Below, one piece after another: positions 14,885 to 40,255 of a stretch of DNA of 64,000 bases (position 1 is the stretch's first letter; every line of letters starts with the position of its first letter). The position numbers and the translations under genes are program-made. The DNA is taken from assembly GCF_007994225.1 (NCBI RefSeq), contig NZ_VLLL01000007.1:124001-188000 (forward strand). Direction: 5' to 3'. The notes below the pieces were generated by a model. It was not told the DNA's origin. It ran no database searches and was given only the letters and a program-made list of their open reading frames with translations. The DNA comes from Stackebrandtia albiflava (GTDB lineage: Bacteria > Actinomycetota > Actinomycetes > Mycobacteriales > Micromonosporaceae).

Positions 14885-15010
14885 CCGCTTGGTCCCCGCC
14901 GTTGCGCTCTTGGTCCCCGCCATATGCGACACATGGGCATGAATCGGGCGGAATGTCGTCGTTTCTTTAACCGGCCGGGGACCAAGCGCAACACGGCGAG
15001 GACCAAGCGG
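14885..15010. repeat. long palindromic repeat, copy A
   Basis: A 126-bp element with near-perfect inverted arms of about 35 bp. Outer arms are CCGCTTGGTCC (14885-14895) and GGACCAAGCGG (15000-15010); each arm contains a second GGTCCCCG / CGGGGACC pair. Copy B at 16017-16142 shares arms and also the central loop (CATAT, GGGCATGAATCGGGCGGAA). The two copies are in the same orientation and flank a DUF559 gene. A shorter relative is copy C at 62543-62637. Confidence 0.85.
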
Positions 15011-15024
15011 TGGACAGGGGAGGA

Positions 15025-15057: not shown

Positions 15058-15972
15058 TCACCACACCGGGGACATGCGAGCCGTCGAGTACCGGGTACGT
15101 GCGGTGATCGCCTCGTTCACCCGCTTCGCCAGAGCCGCCGGCGTGCGGAAGCACTCGTCCCAGCCCCATCGGACCACGCTGAAGCCACTCGCGACCAACC
15201 GCTGTTCGCGCTGCTTCTCACGGACGAACTCCGACGGATCCCGAAGGTACTTCTCCTCGCCGTCCGCCTCCCCCACGACACCGGCCGCCTCCCAGAAGAA
15301 GTCCACTCGGACTCCGCTCACCAGATCGTCCACCTGAATTCGCGGCCGTGGCACTCCGAATCGGAGGAAGCACAGGCGCGACAGGCTCTCCAGCGGGGAT
15401 TCGCTCCGGCCGTCGGATATCCCGGCCACGTATCGCGCCCGCCGCACGAAGGGCCAGCCCGCCATGTGTTCGACCGTCCGAGCGATATCGCGCGGAGTGC
15501 AGAGCCCGTGCTGCAGCGCGGAATCCATCGCCACGACCCCGGCACGCACCCCGCGCAACCGCGCGATGTCGAGGACGGTCCTGGCGACCGTCGTCAGCGG
15601 TAGACCGTGCACGGACGAACGATGTTCCGGCCACATCGCCGCCTGGCGGATGATGGCGTCGGCCGGATCCCGCCGGCCTTGACCGCGTCTGCTCCGCACC
15701 AACTGGATGTGATCGGTCGGGGCACGAAGATGCGCGACACCCCAAAGCCTGGCAGCGGTCTCGTGACTCAGAACGGGATCCCCGATCAACTGGGGCAGGA
15801 CCGCCCCGGCGCGGATCAGCAGCGGATGCCCGTCCTGCACCGCTTCGGCGGGAAGGTAGGCGTTCCGGCGCAGGCGGCGCCAAGTACCGGATCGGCAGAG
15901 CCCTCGAATCCGGTCCGGCGCGAATCCGGCCCGGCGGGCCTGAGCGAAGGTGAACGGCAGTAGCTGTTTCAT
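15058..15972 (-). CDS. DUF559 / Vsr-fold endonuclease-domain protein with AbiEi-like N-terminus
   Basis: 304 residues from the ATG at 15972. N-terminal 50 residues resemble the winged-helix AbiEi-type antitoxin domain (QARRAGFAPDRIRGLCRSG, then WRRLRRNAYLP). The C-terminal 110 residues carry the PD-(D/E)xK/Vsr-like pattern of DUF559: Glu191 and Glu195 in ESPLESL, Asp224 in VDFFW, Glu235-x-Asp237 and Glu240-Lys241 in GEADGEEK. Such proteins are common, variable accessory genes of actinobacteria, suspected of DNA cleavage or defence; activity is not proven. It lies alone between two direct copies of a palindromic repeat, which suggests it is carried as a unit. Confidence 0.8.
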   Translation of the reverse strand: MKQLLPFTFAQARRAGFAPDRIRGLCRSGTWRRLRRNAYLPAEAVQDGHPLLIRAGAVLPQLIGDPVLSHETAARLWGVAHLRAPTDHIQLVRSRRGQGRRDPADAIIRQAAMWPEHRSSVHGLPLTTVARTVLDIARLRGVRAGVVAMDSALQHGLCTPRDIARTVEHMAGWPFVRRARYVAGISDGRSESPLESLSRLCFLRFGVPRPRIQVDDLVSGVRVDFFWEAAGVVGEADGEEKYLRDPSEFVREKQREQRLVASGFSVVRWGWDECFRTPAALAKRVNEAITARTRYSTARMSPVW

Positions 15973-16016: not shown

Positions 16017-16142
16017 CGGCTTGGTCCCCGCCGTTGCGCGCTCGGTCCTCGCCATATCAGACATACGGGCATGAATCGGGCGGAACCTCGCCATTTCGTC
16101 AACCGGACGGGGACCAAGCGCAACACGGCGAGGACCAAGCGG
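16017..16142. repeat. long palindromic repeat, copy B
   Basis: Second copy of the 126-bp element, same orientation as copy A, between the 5' end of the DUF559 gene and the 3' end of nuoH. Outer arms CGGCTTGGTCC / GGACCAAGCGG; central loop shares the CATAT and GGGCATGAATCGGGCGGAA segments with copy A. Differences from copy A are scattered, so the copies are not a very recent duplication. Confidence 0.85.
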
Positions 16143-16168
16143 TTCGGGGAGGGAAGGATCGGATGGGG

Positions 16169-20358: not shown

Positions 20359-20687
20359 TCAGGGGTGCCGTGTATCCCATCGACCTCGGGGATCACAAAC
20401 GCGGCCACGAACAACGTGGAAGGCGTTTCGGCGTCATGGTCAGCGTGACCCAGGACACGTGGAGCACCGTGACCGTGGTGCCCACCTCGACCAGTGCTCA
20501 GCCGTCGTCGTTCCGGCCTGAACTCGTCTTGCTGGGACGGGAGACCCGACTGCTCGTCGATCAGATCCGCAGTATCGACATCAGGTACGTCCTCGGCGAT
20601 CCGATGGACTACCTCGATCGCACCGAGATGGCGCAACTGGACTACACCCTCCACCGGTATCTCGGGCTCACCATGGGGTGGAACTGA
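20355..20687 (+). CDS. MazF/PemK-family toxin
   Basis: 110 residues from a TTG at 20355 overlapping the antitoxin stop. PemK/MazF fold is indicated by RGAVYPIDLGDHKRGHEQRGRRFGVMVS, the long conserved VVPTSTSAQPSSFRPEL strand-loop and TRLLVDQIRSID. Family members are mRNA-cleaving endoribonucleases. The core PTSTS-x-FRPE and DQIRSID motifs look intact, so it is probably active. A strong bidirectional terminator follows. Confidence 0.85.
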   Translation: MIRGAVYPIDLGDHKRGHEQRGRRFGVMVSVTQDTWSTVTVVPTSTSAQPSSFRPELVLLGRETRLLVDQIRSIDIRYVLGDPMDYLDRTEMAQLDYTLHRYLGLTMGWN

Positions 20688-33414: not shown

Positions 33415-35079
33415 TCAGGCGGTCGTCTCGGCGGGGAACGGGTCGGCCGGGTCGGTGACCTCGGCCGGCGCCTCACCGCGCGAGAGCCGGTACCACCGGT
33501 TGACGCCGACCGCCCGCAGGAAGTCCACGTCGTGGCTGACCAGTATCAGCGCACCCCGGTAGGCGTTCAACGCCTGCTGGAGCTGCCGGACACTCGACAT
33601 GTCGAGGTTGTTGGTCGGTTCGTCGAGCATCAGCAGTCCCGGGGCCGGCTCGGCCGACAGCACGCACGCGAGTGCCGCCCGGAGCCGTTCGCCGCCCGAC
33701 AGGGTGGCGACCCGCTGGTCGGCGCGCGAGGTCCGGAACAGGAACCTCGCCAGCCTGGTACGGAGCAGCGTGTTCGACGCCGAGGGCGCGAACCGGCGCA
33801 TGTTGTCGATGACGCTCAGGTCGTCGTCGAGCAGTTCCAGCCGTTGCGGCAGGTAGTGCGCCGCGACCGAGACCTTCACGGTGCCGGAGCGGGGACCGAG
33901 GTCCCCGGCCAGCAGCCGCAGCAGTGTCGTCTTGCCGGACCCGTTGGCGCCCAACAATCCGATCCGTTCGGGGCCGCGCAGGTGCAGATCGACACCCGCC
34001 GGCCCGAACAGGTCGGGACCGTCACCGCCGCCGGGCGCCAGGTTCGCGCCCCGTACGACGCACACGTCACGGCCAGCCGGTACCTCCGTCTCGGGCAAGT
34101 CGACGCGGATCGCCGCGTCGTCCCTGACCGCCTCCTCGGCCTCGTCCAGCCGCTGCCTGGCGTCGGACAGGTCGGTCTGCTTGTCGCCCTTGAGCTTGGC
34201 GGCACTGACCTGCGCCTGGCGCTTACGCGCGTTCATGACGATCTTCGGCTCGCGGGTGTTCTCGAACATCTTGCGGCCGTAGCGTTCCCGGCGGGCCAAT
34301 TTGACCTGCGTGTCGATGAGCTCCTGTTTCTGCCGTTTCATGTCGGCCTTGGCGACCCGCACCATCCGGCGAGCCGCCTCCTGCTCGATCTCCACGGCGG
34401 CCTCGTAGGCGGAGTACGGCCCCTCGAAGGTCCGGATGTCCCCGTCGCGCAGTTCGGCGATGGCGTCCATCCTCTCCAGCAGGGCGCGATCGTGGCTGAC
34501 CACCAGCAGCGTCCCTCCGAACGCCTCCACCGCCTGGTAGAGCCGTTCCCGGGCGACGATGTCCAGGTTGTTGGTGGGCTCGTCCAGCACGAGGATGTCG
34601 GGTTTGCGCAACAGCTTCCCCGCCAGTCCGACCAGCATGGACTCCCCACCGGACAGTCCCGCCACCGGACGGTCGAGGTCCACGTGGTCCAGGCCGAGCC
34701 GGTCGAGTTCGGCGCGGGCGATCTCCTCGACGTCCCAGGCGTCCCCGACGACCGTGAAGTGGCGTTCGTCGGCGTCACCGGCCTCGATGGCCCGCAACGC
34801 CCGGCGGACGTCCGCGATGCCGAGCAGTTCGTCCACGGTGGTGTGCAGCGTCAACGGCAGCTCCTGCGGCAGCCATTCGAGTTCGCCCACCACGTCGACG
34901 GTGCCACCGGACGGCCGCAGGACACCGGCGACCAGACGCAGCAGCGTCGACTTGCCGGTGCCGTTGTCGCCGATGAAACCGGTCCGGCCGTCGCTGGCGA
35001 CGAACTCCAGTCCGTCGAACACCTCGGCGCCGTCGGGCCAGCGGAAGCTCAGATTGTTGACGACGATGGAAGTAGACAT
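33415..35079 (-). CDS. ABC-F family ribosome-associated ATPase (ribosome-protection type)
   Basis: 554 residues from the ATG at 35079, with GAGGAGG 8 nt upstream. Two ABC domains without membrane segments: Walker A GDNGTGKST and GANGSGKTT, signatures LSGGESMLVGLAG and LSGGERLRAALAC, Walker B LVLDEPTNNLD and LMLDEPTNNLD, and a charged inter-domain linker (RRMVRVAKADMKRQKQELI and later). ABC-F proteins enter the ribosomal E site; antibiotic-protection members displace drugs. The long leader with a three-codon ORF fits that class. Substrate drug not predictable. Confidence 0.85.
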   Translation of the reverse strand: MSTSIVVNNLSFRWPDGAEVFDGLEFVASDGRTGFIGDNGTGKSTLLRLVAGVLRPSGGTVDVVGELEWLPQELPLTLHTTVDELLGIADVRRALRAIEAGDADERHFTVVGDAWDVEEIARAELDRLGLDHVDLDRPVAGLSGGESMLVGLAGKLLRKPDILVLDEPTNNLDIVARERLYQAVEAFGGTLLVVSHDRALLERMDAIAELRDGDIRTFEGPYSAYEAAVEIEQEAARRMVRVAKADMKRQKQELIDTQVKLARRERYGRKMFENTREPKIVMNARKRQAQVSAAKLKGDKQTDLSDARQRLDEAEEAVRDDAAIRVDLPETEVPAGRDVCVVRGANLAPGGGDGPDLFGPAGVDLHLRGPERIGLLGANGSGKTTLLRLLAGDLGPRSGTVKVSVAAHYLPQRLELLDDDLSVIDNMRRFAPSASNTLLRTRLARFLFRTSRADQRVATLSGGERLRAALACVLSAEPAPGLLMLDEPTNNLDMSSVRQLQQALNAYRGALILVSHDVDFLRAVGVNRWYRLSRGEAPAEVTDPADPFPAETTA

Positions 35080-35326
35080 ACGGGTGTCCTCCTCAATACT
35101 CGCGATCGCGGATGTCGGCATGAGAGAAGCGACACCGCGTCACGCGGTATGCGAAGGAGGCGGGGATACCCGGGGCATGAGAAAACCCGACGAGGTCCGG
35201 TAAGCCAGATCGCGTGCGCCGGACACGGTACGACGGTCTGCCGTCGTGGCGTGCCCTGAGGCGGTGTCGGCGATCTAGCGCTCCATCGGAATCCTGACGT
35301 CGGGGACAAGGACGTCGACCATTATA
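35080..35326 (-). promoter_or_regulatory. ABC-F leader: promoter, upstream ORF and hairpins
   Basis: On the minus strand a perfect TATAAT lies at 35321-35326 with TTCGAC 18 nt upstream. The resulting leader of about 235 nt contains the ORF at 35275-35286 and several inverted repeats, including ACCGCGT-G-ACGCGGT near 35135-35150 and GTCCGG / CCGGAC near 35190-35225 followed by GGGTTTTC. The layout is that of ribosome-mediated attenuation. Confidence 0.55.
35275..35286 (-). CDS. three-codon upstream ORF (Met-Glu-Arg)
   Basis: ATG GAG CGC TAG, preceded by AGGA 5 nt upstream and starting roughly 28 nt after the predicted transcription start. Very short ORFs ahead of ABC-F and other ribosome-targeted resistance genes act as drug-sensing stalling sites in known systems. 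Here this is an inference from position and Shine-Dalgarno sequence; a second 12-codon ORF may exist further along the leader. Confidence 0.45.
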   Translation of the reverse strand: MER

Positions 35327-35370
35327 GCCGCGCGCCGGGTGCGCGTCGAATGTCAGTGACGCGACTCACC

Positions 35371-35400
35371 TCCCGTCCGGCCGCACGGGGCCGGACGGGA
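35371..35400. terminator. original terminator of the GNAT gene
   Basis: Perfect 12-bp stem TCCCGTCCGGCC / GGCCGGACGGGA with 6-nt loop, immediately beyond copy 1 of the 75-bp GNAT 3'-end repeat. Its place next to an orphan GNAT 3' end suggests it once terminated the GNAT gene, now 1.6 kb away. Confidence 0.6.
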
Positions 35401-35412
35401 GGGCGCGGATCA

Positions 35413-35487
35413 GGCCAGTTCGCGGACCAGGATCTGGCCGGGCCAGTCGTCGGCCTCCGGCCGCGGCACCGTGAACGTCTCCGTCGG
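35413..35487 (-). repeat. 75-bp direct repeat, copy 1 (orphan GNAT 3' end)
   Basis: Identical in every base to 37000-37074, which is the coding 3' end of the GNAT gene. In copy 1 it reads to the original ending (…ELA then TGA) and into the terminator at 35371-35400, but has no gene body upstream. Confidence 0.95.
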
Positions 35488-35546
35488 ATGTCGAATCACC
35501 GACTCACGTCTTGTGATCAAGGCGCTACCTTCTCCATAGTGGGCTT

Positions 35547-36998
35547 ATGACCTCTCCCAACGACCTCGGCATCTATACCGCCGTACTGGATTTCCCACGG
35601 TCCCGACGGCCGGTCATCGCACCAGCGGAACGCCACCACGCGCTGCGACTACGGAGGGAACACGCCGGTCAGTTCTACTGTGGCCTGCTCCTGGGCGGCT
35701 GCGGAGAACGGCTCCTGCTGAAAGCAGGCGAGATCCGGGCACCGCACTTCTCGCACCGGCCGCATGACGCCACCGCGCCACTCGCCTGCCGGCGGATGTC
35801 GTCCTCGCGGCATCGGGGCCGACAGAGCGCGAACCATCTGCACATCGCCACCGCGCTCGACACCTGGCTGCAGAAGCTCGGGCACTCCGTGGCAGCGGTG
35901 GATTTCGGAATGAGGGAGAAGGACGGCCACTGTACGGATATGCGCATCCGTGTCGGTGACCATGGCGTCATCGAGGTGATCCTGTCGGGGACCGATGTGA
36001 ACAACTGGCTCAACCGCGTGCAGCAGCGGTGGAGTGACAAAACGACCCTCATATCGATCGGCGGAGTACGGTTGCCTCCGAACATCGCCCGGTACCGGCG
36101 TGATCAGATTCTTCAACTGAGATTCGACGAGGTCGACGACTACGACAGCTACACGATCGGAATGGAACGGCCCGGTCTACCCACCAGGCGTTTCGGGCTC
36201 GGGGAGTGTCAGTACCGGAATGAGGGAGTCCGCACCCCGCTCGGTTCCATTCCAGAACCCGCCGGAACACACATCACCACGTCCGCTACGGACAGCCGAC
36301 CGCATGGTGAAGCCAAGACGGCACCACCGGACACGGACAAGGTCGGTTCGGAACGCTCATCCATACCAAGCGTTCCCAGGCAGCGCCAGATGGGTCCGTA
36401 TGTACACGTGGTGGGTTTCGGACGGTTTCCCACCAAGCGCTTCGCAAGTGAACTGGTTGCCATCGCAACATACCTTCAAAGCGGTGGTAAGTCGGCGACG
36501 CGCGACCGGGCTCGGAAGTACCGTCATATGGCCGCGAGCCTGCTTGAGGCCCGAAACGACGTATGGATCACCGACACCGTTCAACTAGGCCAGGACATCC
36601 GGGCATATCGAACACCGACGGATCGACGTCGAATCCCACCGCAGAAGCCCGCCCGCACCACCAAGCCACGACCACTGGAACCTAAGAGTGCCCGCCGGAA
36701 GGCGACTCGGACGAGAGACGCCGCTTCGCCTCCTGCGACCCACGCGCAGAAGACGCAGCTCCCCCAGTCGGCCGACAGGCAACCGCCTCGTCGAGGAACC
36801 AACGGCCGGCGTACCGAGCAACACCGCCCCTCGGAGATCGTCACGCCACCAAGGATCACTCTCCGGAGGCCCCGAGACTTCTATGAACGCAACATAATCA
36901 GCCGCATACCCGGAGCCATGTACAACAAGAGCAACCGGGAGTGGAGCGTGCCGGGCAACACTTCGGCGGCACTCATTCAGCCGTGGATCAAACGGTAG
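35547..36998 (+). CDS. CoiA-like PD-(D/E)xK nuclease protein
   Basis: 483 residues from the ATG at 35547; CATAGT at 35535-35540, 6 nt upstream, may be a leaderless -10. N-terminus has a CoiA-type zinc/cysteine region (GQFYCGLLLGGCGERL with Cys45, Cys52; HFSHRP 67-72; Cys81) and a nuclease domain with Asp131 in CTDMRI, Glu143-Ser147 in VIEVILS, then NNWLNRVQQRWSD. A long basic, Pro-rich, disordered stretch follows, ending in a short PGAMYNKSNREWSVPG segment reminiscent of annealing-helicase HARP-type ssDNA contacts. Lower GC and rarer codons than neighbours; sits between 75-bp direct repeats. Likely acquired cargo. Confidence 0.75.
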   Translation: MTSPNDLGIYTAVLDFPRSRRPVIAPAERHHALRLRREHAGQFYCGLLLGGCGERLLLKAGEIRAPHFSHRPHDATAPLACRRMSSSRHRGRQSANHLHIATALDTWLQKLGHSVAAVDFGMREKDGHCTDMRIRVGDHGVIEVILSGTDVNNWLNRVQQRWSDKTTLISIGGVRLPPNIARYRRDQILQLRFDEVDDYDSYTIGMERPGLPTRRFGLGECQYRNEGVRTPLGSIPEPAGTHITTSATDSRPHGEAKTAPPDTDKVGSERSSIPSVPRQRQMGPYVHVVGFGRFPTKRFASELVAIATYLQSGGKSATRDRARKYRHMAASLLEARNDVWITDTVQLGQDIRAYRTPTDRRRIPPQKPARTTKPRPLEPKSARRKATRTRDAASPPATHAQKTQLPQSADRQPPRRGTNGRRTEQHRPSEIVTPPRITLRRPRDFYERNIISRIPGAMYNKSNREWSVPGNTSAALIQPWIKR

Positions 36999-37527
36999 GG
37001 GCCAGTTCGCGGACCAGGATCTGGCCGGGCCAGTCGTCGGCCTCCGGCCGCGGCACCGTGAACGTCTCCGTCGGCGTGAACCCCTGCGCCCGGTAGTAGT
37101 TCACCAGTGCCAGGTCCGGTCCCCGGAAACAGTCGACGCGCAGCCGCTCCACCCCCGCGCGCCTCGCCAGCGTCTCGGCGTGTTCCAGCAGGCGCGCGCC
37201 GATCCGGGATCCCTTCCGGGTGCGGTCGCTGGCGAGGAAACGCACGTACAGTTCCGGCACGGTCGCCGGTGGCACGTAGGGCATCGCCTCGCCGACCACC
37301 AGCGCACCGACCGGTTCACCGTCGAGGGTGGCGATGTACAGGCCCTCGTCCCGTTCCCACTCCTGCGCCCTCGCCACCCTCGCGGGTTCGGCGGACGCGG
37401 GGTTGCTACCCCACTGGTCGGTGCGTCCCAGCGACACCAGCCATTCCATCGCACCGTCGAGGAGCGCGAGGATCACCCGGGCGTCACCGGTACGGCCACG
37501 GCGGATCGCGAACCGGTCGTCAGTCAT
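36988..37527 (-). CDS. GNAT-family N-acetyltransferase
   Basis: 179 residues from the ATG at 37527 (MTDDRFAIRRG). GNAT fold: FAIRRGRTGDARVILALLDGAMEWL, GLYIATLDGEPVGALVVGEAMP, LYVRFLASDRTRKGSRIGARLLEHAETLARR (acetyl-CoA loop RKGSRIGARLL) and VNYYRAQGFTPTETF near the end. Its last 75 bp are also present as an orphan copy at 35413-35487; compared with that ancestral end (…RELA-stop), the current protein ends …RELAPTV, three residues longer, and its stop overlaps the CoiA-like gene by 11 bp. Substrate unknown. Confidence 0.85.
   Translation of the reverse strand: MTDDRFAIRRGRTGDARVILALLDGAMEWLVSLGRTDQWGSNPASAEPARVARAQEWERDEGLYIATLDGEPVGALVVGEAMPYVPPATVPELYVRFLASDRTRKGSRIGARLLEHAETLARRAGVERLRVDCFRGPDLALVNYYRAQGFTPTETFTVPRPEADDWPGQILVRELAPTV
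37000..37074 (-). repeat. 75-bp direct repeat, copy 2 (functional GNAT 3' end)
   Basis: Coding end of the GNAT gene, identical to copy 1 at 35413-35487. The two copies bracket the CoiA-like gene; period 1587 bp. Confidence 0.95.
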
Positions 37528-37645
37528 CGCCCCATGATGCCCAGCCGCAGGGGCCGTCGTCCTGTGATCTTCCGCGCTCCGGAGGCGATCCGCGTGGACG
37601 CGGCGAGGCGACACCGGGCCGTCGCGCTCCGGCAGCGCCCCCGGG

Positions 37646-37676
37646 TCAGGCGACGTGCCGGGCGAAGCGTTCCACG
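37646..37676 (-). repeat. 31-bp direct repeat, copy 1 (orphan isomerase 3' end)
   Basis: Identical to 38319-38349, the last ten codons (…VERFARHVA-stop) of the sugar isomerase gene. Copy 1 has no gene body attached and lies 50 bp upstream of the mazE-like gene. Four extra matching bases (CCGG) occur one base outside both copies. Confidence 0.95.
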
Positions 37677-37701
37677 TTTCCACCGGTACTCGGCGGCGTC
37701 G

Positions 37702-37718
37702 GTATAACCGGGTTATAC
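37702..37718. promoter_or_regulatory. operator/promoter of the mazEF-type pair
   Basis: Perfect inverted repeat GTATAAC-CGG-GTTATAC. The -10 TATACT (37714-37719) overlaps its right arm and lies 6 nt before the ATG. RHH antitoxins usually repress through such a palindrome. Confidence 0.7.
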
Positions 37719-37725
37719 TTGCCGC

Positions 37726-37971
37726 ATGAAAACCGCCATCTCGATGCCCGACGAGGTATTCCGAAAGGTGCAGGAATGCGCCGACGAGCTGGGAGTCAGC
37801 CGCTCCGAGTTCATCACGTCCGCAGCCGAGAGGTATGTCGCGTACGTGCGAAACCATACGCTGACCCACCGGTTGAATGCGGCACTGGCATTCAGCGTCC
37901 CCGATGAGATCACCGAGGAAGTCGTCTCGGCCGGCAAACGCCGGTTGGCGGACGAGGACGAAGACTGGTGA
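37726..37971 (+). CDS. RHH antitoxin (MazE-like)
   Basis: 81 residues. Begins MKTAISMPDEVFRKVQECADELGVSRSEFITSAAERYVAYV, a textbook ribbon-helix-helix. C-terminal acidic tail DEDEDW is the likely toxin-binding region. Overlaps the toxin gene by 4 nt (GTGA). Sits directly downstream of a palindromic operator and between 31-bp direct repeats that copy the end of the neighbouring isomerase gene. Confidence 0.88.
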   Translation: MKTAISMPDEVFRKVQECADELGVSRSEFITSAAERYVAYVRNHTLTHRLNAALAFSVPDEITEEVVSAGKRRLADEDEDW

Positions 37972-38312
37972 TCCACCGCGGATCCGTCTACTGGGCCGAC
38001 CTCGGGCCCACCACCGGCAGCCGACCCGCCAAACACCGGCCGGTCGTGGTGATACAGGCCGCTCCCTTCAACAACAGTCGCATCGCGACCGTCATCGTCG
38101 CCGCGATAACGTCGAACACCGCTTTGTCGTCCGCGCCCGGCAATGTGTTCCTACCCGCCGCCGTGAGCGGACTGTCACGGGACTCCACGATCAACGTCAG
38201 CCAACTGGTCACGTTGAACAAGACCGATCTGGACGGACCGATCGGTGCCGTACCGGAATACCTCCTGCCTCAACTCGATGACGGACTCCGCCTCGTCCTG
38301 GGTCTGACGTGA
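37968..38312 (+). CDS. MazF/PemK-type mRNA endoribonuclease toxin
   Basis: 114 residues from a GTG at 37968. PemK/MazF signatures: HRGSVYWADLGPTTGSRPAKHRPVVVIQA, then AITSNTALSSAPGNVFLP and GLSRDSTINVSQLVTLNK. The conserved Arg in GSRPAKHRP and Thr/Ser in the second block look intact. Toxic when antitoxin is lost; its stop codon is 6 bp short of copy 2 of the 31-bp repeat. Confidence 0.88.
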   Translation: MIHRGSVYWADLGPTTGSRPAKHRPVVVIQAAPFNNSRIATVIVAAITSNTALSSAPGNVFLPAAVSGLSRDSTINVSQLVTLNKTDLDGPIGAVPEYLLPQLDDGLRLVLGLT

Positions 38313-38318
38313 TCCGGA

Positions 38319-38349
38319 TCAGGCGACGTGCCGGGCGAAGCGTTCCACG
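38319..38349 (-). repeat. 31-bp direct repeat, copy 2 (functional isomerase 3' end)
   Basis: Coding 3' end of the sugar isomerase gene, identical to 37646-37676. The mazEF-type pair occupies the 642 bp between the copies; the period is 673 bp. Confidence 0.95.
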
Positions 38350-39119
38350 GTCTCGGCGAAGACCTCCGGTCCCGGCCGGCTCCACAGGACGTCGTTGAAG
38401 AGTTCCACCTCGATGGGGCCGGTGTAGCCCGCCGCGTCCACGGCCGTCTTGAAGCGGCGGAAGTCGACACAGCCGTCACCCAACTGGCCTCTGCCGGTCA
38501 AGACCCCGGCCGGCAACGGCGTCACCCAGTCGGCCACCTGGAAGCTGCTGATCCTGCCGGCGGCGGAGGCTATCGCGTCGAAGACGCGGGGATCCCACCA
38601 CACGTGATAGGTGTCGACGACCACGCCCACCGTCTCGGCCGGGAACGGCGCCGCCAACTCCACCGCCTGCTCCAGAGTGGACACCACGCAGCGGTCCGAG
38701 GCGAACATCGGGTGCAGCGGTTCGATCGCGAGCCGCACACCGGCCTCACCGGCGTACGGCGCCAGTTCCGCCAACGCCTCGGCGACCCTGGCACGCGCGG
38801 TGTCGATCCCGGTGTCGCGGTCGGGAAGGCCACCGCACACCAGGACCAGTTCCGGTGCGCCGAGCACCGCCGCCTCCTCGATCGCCCGGCGGTTGTCCTC
38901 GATGGCCGCCCGGTCACCACCGGTGAAGAACCCTCCCCGGCACAGCGAGGTGACCGCGACCCCGGCGTCCCGCACCAGCGCGGCGGTCGCCGCCAGGCCG
39001 GCCGCCGCCACCGGTTCCCGCCACAGGCCGATTCCGGCGCCGATCCGGGCGCACGCCTCCACGGCCTCACGCTGGTCCCAGAACTTCGTCGTCGCGTGGT
39101 TGAGCGCGAACCGGTTCAC
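38319..39119 (-). CDS. sugar phosphate isomerase/epimerase (AP endonuclease family 2 fold)
   Basis: 266 residues from a GTG at 39119 overlapping the DUF993 stop (GTGA). TIM barrel of the IolE/hydroxypyruvate isomerase type: NHATTKFWDQREAVEACARIG, GVRLAIEPLHPMF (metal-binding Glu and His), VVVDTYHVWWDP (Asp, His), VELFNDVLWSR at the C-terminus (Glu). Last gene of a three-gene sugar operon. Its end is duplicated upstream of the toxin-antitoxin pair. Substrate unknown. Confidence 0.85.
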   Translation of the reverse strand: MNRFALNHATTKFWDQREAVEACARIGAGIGLWREPVAAAGLAATAALVRDAGVAVTSLCRGGFFTGGDRAAIEDNRRAIEEAAVLGAPELVLVCGGLPDRDTGIDTARARVAEALAELAPYAGEAGVRLAIEPLHPMFASDRCVVSTLEQAVELAAPFPAETVGVVVDTYHVWWDPRVFDAIASAAGRISSFQVADWVTPLPAGVLTGRGQLGDGCVDFRRFKTAVDAAGYTGPIEVELFNDVLWSRPGPEVFAETVERFARHVA

Positions 39120-40255
39120 TGGTCCACCCCCATCACGGTCAGCCACGCGCGCATCCTGGCCGCCGCCGACTCCGGATCCGGGAACAGGCCCACCCGGTCG
39201 GCGAGGGTGAACACCGACACCAGGTGCGGCACCGACCGCGCCGACTCGCTGCCACCGACCATCCTGAAGTGCCGTTGCCGCCCCGACAGCCACGCCAGGA
39301 ACACCACACCGGTCTTGTAGTGGAAGGTCGGCGCCTCGAACAACCGCCGCGCCAGCGGCACCGTCGGGTCCAGGACGTCGTGGAATCCGGCGACGTCTCC
39401 GGCGTCGAGCCGGTGCACCGCCTGAGACGCCTTGGCCGCCAACGGATCGAACACGCCCAGCAGTGCGTGGCTGTAACCCCGGTCGTCTCCGGCGATCAAC
39501 TCCGGATAGTGGAAGTCGTCGCCGGTGTAGCACTTGACGCCGTCGGGCAGTCGCCGCCGGAATGCCACCTCGGCGGCGGCGTCCAACAGGGAGATCTTGA
39601 CGCCGTCCACCGCGTCGGGGTGTGCCGCGATGAGGTCCAGCAGCACGTCCGCGGCCGCACGCAGGTCGGTGGATCCCCAGTAGCCGGTCAACGCCGGGTC
39701 GAACATCGGTCCCAGCCAGTGCAGGATGACCGGGGTCCTCACCTGCGTCAGCAGTCGCCCGTAGACGTCGCGGTAGTCCTGTGGCCCCGAGGCGGTGGCG
39801 GCCAACGCCCGTGAGCACATCAGGATCGGTACCGCGCCGACGTCCTCGACGTGCGCCAACTGCTCCTCGTAGGCGCCGGTGATCTCGGCGAGGGACGCCG
39901 GGGTGGTGAGCTGGTCGGTGCCCGCGCCGCAGGCGAGCAGTCCCCTGCCGGCCTCGGACGCCGACCGGCGGATGAGTTCCCGGGCCGTGGGCCAGTCGAG
40001 CCCCATGCCGCGCTGGGCGGTGTCCATGGCCTCGGCGACACCGAGTCCGTGTGACCACAGGTGTCTCCGGAACTCCATCGTGGCGTCCCAGTCCAGGGCC
40101 GCGGGTCGGCCCGGGCCGGTGTCTGCCGAGGGGTCGGCCACCACGTGGGCGGCCGCGTAGACGACCCGTGACCCGGCGGGACCCTGCGGAGAGGCGGGCG
40201 CGGGCTCACCCATCGTGTGTCGGGTGCCGTCGGGCAGCCGTACCGTGGCGGTCAC
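39116..40255 (-). CDS. DUF993 / dihydrodipicolinate synthase-like protein
   Basis: 379 residues from a GTG at 40255, overlapping the Gfo/Idh stop by 4 nt. TIM-barrel aldolase-like: YRDVYGRLLTQVRTPVILHWLGPMFDPALTGYWG, VDGVKISLLDAAAEVAFR with the Lys in the position of a DapA-type Schiff-base lysine, and YSHALLGVFDPLA. DUF993 genes regularly accompany Gfo/Idh/MocA and isomerase genes in inositol- or sugar-type catabolic operons. Reaction not established. Confidence 0.8.
   Translation of the reverse strand: MTATVRLPDGTRHTMGEPAPASPQGPAGSRVVYAAAHVVADPSADTGPGRPAALDWDATMEFRRHLWSHGLGVAEAMDTAQRGMGLDWPTARELIRRSASEAGRGLLACGAGTDQLTTPASLAEITGAYEEQLAHVEDVGAVPILMCSRALAATASGPQDYRDVYGRLLTQVRTPVILHWLGPMFDPALTGYWGSTDLRAAADVLLDLIAAHPDAVDGVKISLLDAAAEVAFRRRLPDGVKCYTGDDFHYPELIAGDDRGYSHALLGVFDPLAAKASQAVHRLDAGDVAGFHDVLDPTVPLARRLFEAPTFHYKTGVVFLAWLSGRQRHFRMVGGSESARSVPHLVSVFTLADRVGLFPDPESAAARMRAWLTVMGVDQ

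Follow-up and report, generated by a model that had tools for sequence, protein, structure and literature searches.

In the 64-kb stretch of Stackebrandtia albiflava DNA analysed here (the window), the last 75 bp of a gene for a GNAT acetyltransferase are present twice, and a single gene coding for a CoiA-like protein lies between the two copies (Table 1). The copies agree at 75 of 75 positions, as a first-pass annotation of this DNA had claimed, and its description of one plus-strand gene between them, convergent with the GNAT gene, also holds, as do all the coordinates that it gave. One copy forms the end of the GNAT gene; the other is an orphan, which leads into the ancestral stop codon (35410-35412) and then to the side of the ABC-F gene. 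Reading the sequence likewise reproduced the replacement of the stop: the orphan copy ends in RELA-stop and the gene copy in RELAPTV-stop, the GNAT frame extending 12 bp beyond the repeat and ending inside the CoiA-like gene, with three residues added. The left joint of the insert is at 35487/35488, and at the other side a single base separates the stop codon of the CoiA-like gene from the gene copy of the repeat. The hairpin that had been called terminator-like does follow the orphan stop with a perfect stem, although a terminator scan gives no call there. The lower GC content reported for the inserted gene was also reproduced (GC3 0.717, against 68-72% GC and GC3 0.86-0.93 in five neighbouring genes), and the adjacent RHH and MazF genes are also low in GC (61% and 64%). 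A search of positions 34500-38200 found no pair of inverted repeats at both insert ends, and the sole long ORF of the insert is the CoiA-like gene; insertion sequences and transposons, in contrast, have terminal inverted repeats and a transposase. No known RNA was found at the locus at the gathering threshold.

The adjacent gene bears the same scar, which was absent from the first-pass annotation. An exact-repeat scan gave 31 bp at 37646 and 38319, the latter being the stop end of a minus-strand isomerase-like gene, which we take to code for a TIM barrel; when extended, the repeat pairs 37641-37676 with 38314-38349 at 35 of 36 positions. It surrounds a gene pair for a ribbon-helix-helix (RHH) antitoxin-like protein and a PemK/MazF-like toxin, which is convergent with the isomerase gene, again with one base between the toxin stop codon and the repeat. 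Two successive genes therefore each carry a duplicated 3' end and a compact cargo.

Table 1. Features of the two duplicated gene ends (positions in the window)
Feature	Position	Strand	Evidence or remark
ABC-F ATPase gene, native-side neighbour of the GNAT end	33415..35121	-	
Hairpin past the orphan GNAT stop	35369..35402		perfect 14-bp inverted repeat, 6-nt loop
Orphan copy of the GNAT end (displaced, native context)	35413..35487	-	75/75 against 37000-37074
Upstream region of the cargo gene, 59 bp	35488..35546	+	read from the sequence
Cargo gene, CoiA_N zinc-domain protein, 483 aa, GC 63.1%	35547..36998	+	PF25164
GNAT acetyltransferase gene (start taken at 37527)	36988..37527	-	PF00583, E 1.1e-11
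Gene copy of the 75-bp GNAT end	37000..37074	-	identical to 35413-35487
Orphan copy of the isomerase-like gene 3' end, 36 bp	37641..37676	-	35/36
RHH antitoxin-like gene, second cargo part 1	37726..37971	+	PF01402, E 2.2e-5
PemK/MazF-like toxin gene, second cargo part 2	37968..38312	+	PF02452, E 5e-24
Gene copy of the isomerase-like gene 3' end	38314..38349	-	
Isomerase-like gene, duplicated 3' end (start chosen within a longer ORF)	38319..39140	-	

We checked whether the 75-bp repeat could have a trivial origin. The 75-mer occurs in only two places of the searched 5.55-Mb genome and the next longest exact direct repeat in the window is 36 bp, so that chance can be rejected; the same two-place distribution disposes of a widespread conserved sequence, which the first-pass annotation had named as the reading opposed to an insertion. 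An assembly artefact is unlikely, because both scars are far from the ends of a 466-kb contig and involve different repeats. The scar is real and probably recent, and we read it as left by the acquisition of one gene at the 3' end of another.

The cargo protein was examined for the activity proposed for it. Its CoiA-type Zn/Cys domain was confirmed by a match to PF25164 (CoiA_N; E 3.8e-8, 33.1 bits against a cut-off of 26.3), and Cys45, Cys52, His70 and Cys81, which we take to be zinc ligands, are kept in 32, 32, 32 and 33 of 33 aligned rows, respectively. The residues proposed for a PD-(D/E)xK active site (Asp131, Glu143 and Ser147) are, on the other hand, not conserved in this alignment of 33: the Glu143 column is Arg in 31 rows and the Ser147 column is Asp in 27, and Asp131 may be equivalent to a conserved Asp two columns further on. 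Structure models are modest (mean pLDDT 55.5 and 66.9); they give the order helix, three strands, helix, strand, presumably the order of a PD-(D/E)xK core. Two fold searches with Foldseek gave no PDB match at E <= 0.001 and no nuclease among the 50 matches listed for each, and none of the PADLOC and NCBIfam models matched the protein. As to a solved relative, the one match obtained (E 0.29) was a trypsin inhibitor and was taken as chance. The name "stand-alone nuclease" should accordingly give way to CoiA_N zinc-domain protein, an active PD-(D/E)xK nuclease being not supported as a prediction from the sequence. A predicted function in defence or DNA handling, taken broadly, is likely, and a putative role in defence or DNA uptake specifically is possible. 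A CoiA domain is found, in passages of PMC9519451, among the systems obtained in a phage-defence selection in E. coli; in both cases a gene taken up on variable DNA codes for such a domain, a likeness of domain and context rather than of sequence comparison.

Relatives were searched for a site lacking the insert and for a possible donor. In the congener G002, the ABC-F and GNAT genes are adjacent (about 0.5 kb apart) and no CoiA-like match occurs genome-wide; this may correspond to the empty site that had been anticipated, although the GNAT gene there is about 64% identical and the exact target cannot be read. On its other side, the G002 GNAT gene is flanked by RloB-like and AAA genes matching the AbiLii and AbiLi models, so that the GNAT flank holds a defence-like pair elsewhere too. 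The congener G003 has a FAD monooxygenase gene and a TetR gene between ABC-F and GNAT, and its isomerase gene has a scar of its own, in which 191 bp of the 3' end are repeated at 90% identity and the roughly 0.4 kb between the copies holds a 100-aa ORF that gave no match in a Pfam search. CoiA-like matches were found in two of five genomes of the genus, and the same two are the only ones among 81 genomes of a family sample; the second copy of the genus is 31% identical and lies in a different place. A scan of genome contigs with the single CoiA-like protein, in a collection that may leave out this genome, gave no relative, and a search with a four-row alignment gave 45 distant CoiA loci in Streptomyces and Kitasatospora. 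A GNAT relative was present in the available flanking DNA at none of these 45 loci (tblastn, E <= 1e-3), and a donor having a CoiA-like cargo beside the same gene end was not found by the protein scan or among the 45 loci. We also considered that the CoiA gene might carry its own repeats everywhere, and this was not supported: a direct repeat spans the gene in only 4 of the 45 distant relatives (L087, L106, L107 and L109). In L087 the repeats form a CRISPR-like array, L107 is below the thresholds of our repeat scan, and L109 has copies inside a gene and in an intergenic region; in L106 alone among the four does a copy sit on a gene 3' end (31 bp, 90%). An origin from a plasmid or phage is not supported either, since the DNA of 35400-37600 gave no match in a plasmid search and the protein gave two distant plasmid matches and no phage match.

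To see how common such scars are, we scanned six stretches of this genome and two congeners for direct repeats with a length of 28-400 bp, an identity of 85% or more and a spacing of 250-6000 bp. The stretches were contig C3 (440 kb, of which 72 kb masked), a pair from contig C1 (400 kb each), a pair from G003 and a single one from G004, making 2,367,431 unmasked bases with genes predicted by an ad hoc script. The counts exclude the L087 and L120 arrays and any pair whose copies are both genic (paralogues, tandem genes) or both intergenic. Eleven pairs combine a genic with an intergenic copy; eight of them lie on a gene 3' end, one on a 5' end and two inside genes, and this 3'-end share of 8/11 compares with 8.4% expected if copies were placed at random (p 3e-7). 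The control with inverted repeats did give hits, three rows at two places, one an overlap of 4-5 bp and the other inside a repeat that also pairs directly. The eight 3'-end scars comprise the GNAT and isomerase genes of the window; a 164-aa gene and an Excalibur gene on C3, nested, with an Excalibur paralogue as cargo; a hemerythrin gene on C1 (L189; 80/82 bp) around a Phd/YefM antitoxin and the remnant of a PIN toxin; and, in G003, the isomerase gene, a permease gene and a small doubtful ORF. The L189 toxin is broken over several frames, one piece of it matching PF01850 below the cut-off. Two of the eight are weak, namely the G003 permease case at 113902, which is a tandem array of stem-loop units of about 127 bp, and g3b 113030, where the gene call is doubtful. 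No 3'-end scar came from G004 or from one of the C1 pair. At least four further cases are present in Streptomyces (L093, L095, L106 and L110). A literature search gave, among the papers listed, no description of this pattern of 3'-end duplication in actinomycetes.

Replacement of a gene 3' end is typical of integrative elements, and the insert had been likened to them for arriving with its own replacement 3' end; an insertion at the end of the GNAT gene, with that end doubled, is supported, while the integrative element itself remains an analogy. A non-autonomous element (presumably CIME-like) with attL and attR at the GNAT end, mobilised in trans by a tyrosine recombinase of the genome, is very unlikely in our estimation. 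There are five PF00589 places in the genome that could be called upon, none of them on contig C3 (about 72 kb masked). The earlier statement that no integrase is present is therefore valid for C3 as searched, although for tyrosine integrases only. Different genes with unrelated ends are duplicated alike, with repeats of 36 to 191 bp, and this argues against a site-specific pair of att and integrase, because one att specificity cannot serve them all.

We favour, with a probability of roughly one half, one-sided homologous acquisition displacing the native gene end. The incoming fragment would carry the CoiA-like gene tail to tail with the end of an identical or nearly identical GNAT gene from another strain. 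Either its ends would be joined into a small circle, for which the genome has a Ku gene, and one RecA-type crossover within the short stretch of GNAT homology would integrate it, or homology would serve at one end and illegitimate recombination at the other. The last part of the chromosomal GNAT gene would then be of donor origin and lead into the cargo, and the native end of the recipient would be left displaced as the 75-bp orphan beside the original hairpin and the ABC-F gene. Homology of 31-75 bp is short for crossovers of the RecA type, and this counts against the reading, as does the failure of the protein scan and the 45 distant loci to yield a donor. The locus has one joint in homology, the other without it, and a duplicated target end; this is an agreement in form, and the same form fits a target duplication. 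A laboratory precedent, in which linear DNA with one-sided homology to lacZ integrated, is given in passages of PMC3240628. The homology-facilitated illegitimate recombination and trimmed-circle crossover treated there are alike to our case in having a homologous anchor and a non-homologous joint, and in a product with part of the target gene end doubled around the new DNA; those passages concern plasmid integration in the laboratory with about 1 kb of homology, whereas the scars here are natural and of 31-209 bp. Passages of PMC5361080 propose homology-facilitated illegitimate recombination also for Rhs loci and for type VI effector clusters with their orphan genes, where old gene parts are similarly orphaned behind a new module; the new end there differs and changes the protein, whereas at the GNAT gene the incoming end equals the old one and the enzyme survives with three residues added.

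The main rival, and the closest known kind of event, is insertion with a long target duplication, in which insertions doubling an entire gene end persist because they leave the gene unbroken; we consider it a tentative possibility. Nobusato et al. 2000 and Furuta et al. 2010 reportedly described long target duplication for restriction-modification genes in Helicobacter pylori and others. The high identity of the repeats in this genome (75/75, 35/36 and 80/82) speaks for it, as does a Ku gene, which was present in all four genomes searched (this genome and three congeners). The inserts, moreover, are nearly exact gene units: in the five cases measured, the distance from the cargo stop to the repeat edge is 1, 1, 5, 14 and 9 bp. 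Such units are suspiciously neat for one-sided homologous acquisition, because they would not be expected from random fragment ends. Target duplications of the order of 100 bp are published for restriction-modification genes (in passages of PMC3874152, PMC3031569 and PMC1643837), and the likeness extends to a gene unit without mobile-element genes between direct repeats of this order and to a cargo of a selfish or defence sort. In a target duplication both repeat copies would derive from the target; the GNAT copies are identical, and the diverged pairs described below point the other way. The cargo there is restriction-modification genes and here a CoiA-like gene and toxin-antitoxin pairs, and the repeats here, unlike those of long target duplications, keep to the 3' ends of genes and break off close to the stop codon.

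This last property was measured as the distance of the outer repeat edge from the outer base of the stop codon, which is -3, +5, +6, +15, +38, -2, +4 and +6 bp in the eight scars and +1, +2, +9 and +1 in the four Streptomyces cases listed. The edge is thus within -3 to +15 in 7/8 and 4/4, or 11 of 12 cases, compared with 21% by chance, where the null is random placements touching a 3' end; both the edge window and the tests were settled on once the first cases had been seen. The exception is L189, whose repeat continues through a hairpin to 38 bp beyond the stop. On the inner side the repeats reach 22-208 bp into the genes. Random staggered nicks, as in a target duplication, should not put the edge at the stop so often, and selection alone requires a whole gene, not a repeat edge at the stop. 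Under one-sided homologous acquisition, edges at the stop codon would be explained because homology between genomes that share the gene, and not the downstream DNA, ends there.

A second line of evidence is the divergence between copies. Synonymous changes make up 37 of 73 changed codons in seven diverged pairs, namely six scars and an rfbB-like remnant in G047 (L176); the comparison left out the GNAT, window isomerase, L189, L106, G003 permease and g3b pairs, and kept in some poorly aligned edge codons of the G003 isomerase pair. If one copy decayed neutrally from identity, about 27% synonymous changes would be expected (p 1.5e-5), and with the gene copy also under constraint, about 40% by a rough estimate (p 0.04). 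This excess moderately favours two gene lineages meeting, as would be predicted by one-sided homologous acquisition; against a target duplication it counts weakly, in that the more diverged pairs resemble two coding lineages rather than one decaying copy at p 0.04 under the stricter null. For the GNAT pair, which has zero differences, the test is silent. The G047 remnant sits among other gene fragments, and this is in line with a former tandem duplication, by which the GNAT gene and neighbouring DNA would have been doubled, one copy deleted down to its last 75 bp and the gap filled by the CoiA-like gene; the nested case L044 8573-9915, with exactly the spacing of a tandem unit (581 bp), points in the same direction. 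We regard this history as improbable, since a duplication, a deletion and a separate gene gain would be needed at several genes, and yet the identity here is 100%.

As for persistence, inserts flanked by repeats could loop out, and because recombination between the repeats would remove the insert, a cargo that persists should confer an advantage or addiction, such as a toxin-antitoxin or defence system would give. The four cargoes in the scanned part of this genome are two toxin-antitoxin pairs (one broken), the CoiA-like gene and the Excalibur gene, and it is tempting to suppose that addiction or defence holds the inserts in place; enrichment of toxin-antitoxin genes among the cargoes is only suggestive. 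Flanking repeats were found at 0 of 30 PemK loci of relatives and at 0 of 47 control loci, at least three of the 30 being cut by a contig end with short flanks. The 30 loci exclude the pair of the window and the pair of G047 (L176), the latter being a selected example from 12 MazF loci. Toxin-antitoxin modules as a habitual cargo are therefore not supported in general. It is a speculative and rather unlikely extension that the genus has an active route which inserts units from promoter to stop, preferentially of addiction or defence type, next to ordinary genes at their 3' ends, the end copy being regenerated and the target unbroken; these would be recombinase-free cassettes, any gene end could serve as a site, and addiction would guard against repeat-mediated loss.

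The scar at the GNAT gene is one of several in the genus, and its mechanism is near to known processes; what is new is the bond to gene ends and the cargo. The spread of single defence or toxin-antitoxin genes is usually accounted for by phages, transposons and integrases. Here two adjacent inserts lie without signs of any of these, and each keeps its target gene whole by means of a doubled end. If the reading of homology with a donor is true, gene 3' ends would be a general entry point that needs no recombinase and can be detected by a simple repeat scan, and the lasting of an unstable repeat-cargo-repeat structure would serve as a natural assay for genes that resist loss. These scars hint at how single genes enter genomes without known mobile-element machinery.

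In the window, the isomerase gene next to an RHH-MazF toxin-antitoxin pair has its end duplicated, and the two copies enclose that pair; this locus has the same architecture as the CoiA-like gene lying between the duplicated GNAT gene ends. Elsewhere in this genome, a hemerythrin gene end with its hairpin is present twice, and the copies enclose a Phd/YefM antitoxin together with a PIN toxin that is split across several frames. In the relative G047, a MazF-RHH pair is flanked by a gene end, which we take to be that of an rfbB-like gene, and by its remnant; the same locus also holds a fragment presumably resembling prolyl-tRNA synthetase. The second PemK-like gene of the window is without flanking repeats. 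Two nested scars, i.e., duplicated gene ends flanking an inserted unit, were found at L044, where the cargo is an Excalibur paralogue.

Feature coordinates (G000, genome of the window; G002 and G003, congeners; L, individual loci; C, contigs)
Feature	Location	Detail
RHH-MazF pair	window 37641-38349	copies 35/36 identical
Second PemK-like gene	window 20361-20660	
Phd/YefM-PIN pair	L189 18583-19469 (G000 C1:538583-539469)	82-bp copies
MazF-RHH pair	L176 613-2579 (G047)	remnant 204 bp, 93%
Nested scars	L044 8573-9915 (G000)	
Scar 1	L044	Excalibur gene end, 41 bp
Scar 2	L044	end of adjoining gene, 64 bp; tandem spacing exactly 581 bp
AbiLi/AbiLii-like genes beside GNAT	L003 2200-3303 (G002)	RloB + AAA
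Tandem permease units	G003 C1:2113902-2114208	two units, ~127 bp
tRNA 5' halves	L039 442-730 (G000 C3:120442-120730)	three copies, units ~125 bp
Intergenic sequence	G000 C3:289444, 291877, 297732	38-45 bp, spanning 8.3 kb
AbiEi/DUF559-like gene	window 15058-15972	
Palindromic element	window 14887-15011, 16019-16143	125 bp, 88.8% identical

Defence-like genes directly adjoin the GNAT gene in the congener G002, and arrays with a period of ~61 bp, presumably CRISPR-like, adjoin CoiA-like genes of Kitasatospora aureofaciens and Streptomyces bikiniensis (L087, L120).

Downstream of a permease gene in the congener G003, each tandem unit consists of 50 bp of the permease gene end and GC-rich stem-loops. 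In the genome of the window, the 5' half of a tRNA, which we assume to be proline-like, is repeated together with stem-loop DNA, the first half being part of an intact tRNA gene, and a near-identical intergenic sequence occurs at three places. Two copies of a palindromic element bracket the AbiEi/DUF559-like gene; this element, having 82 match rows across the genome, many partial and full, is MITE-like.
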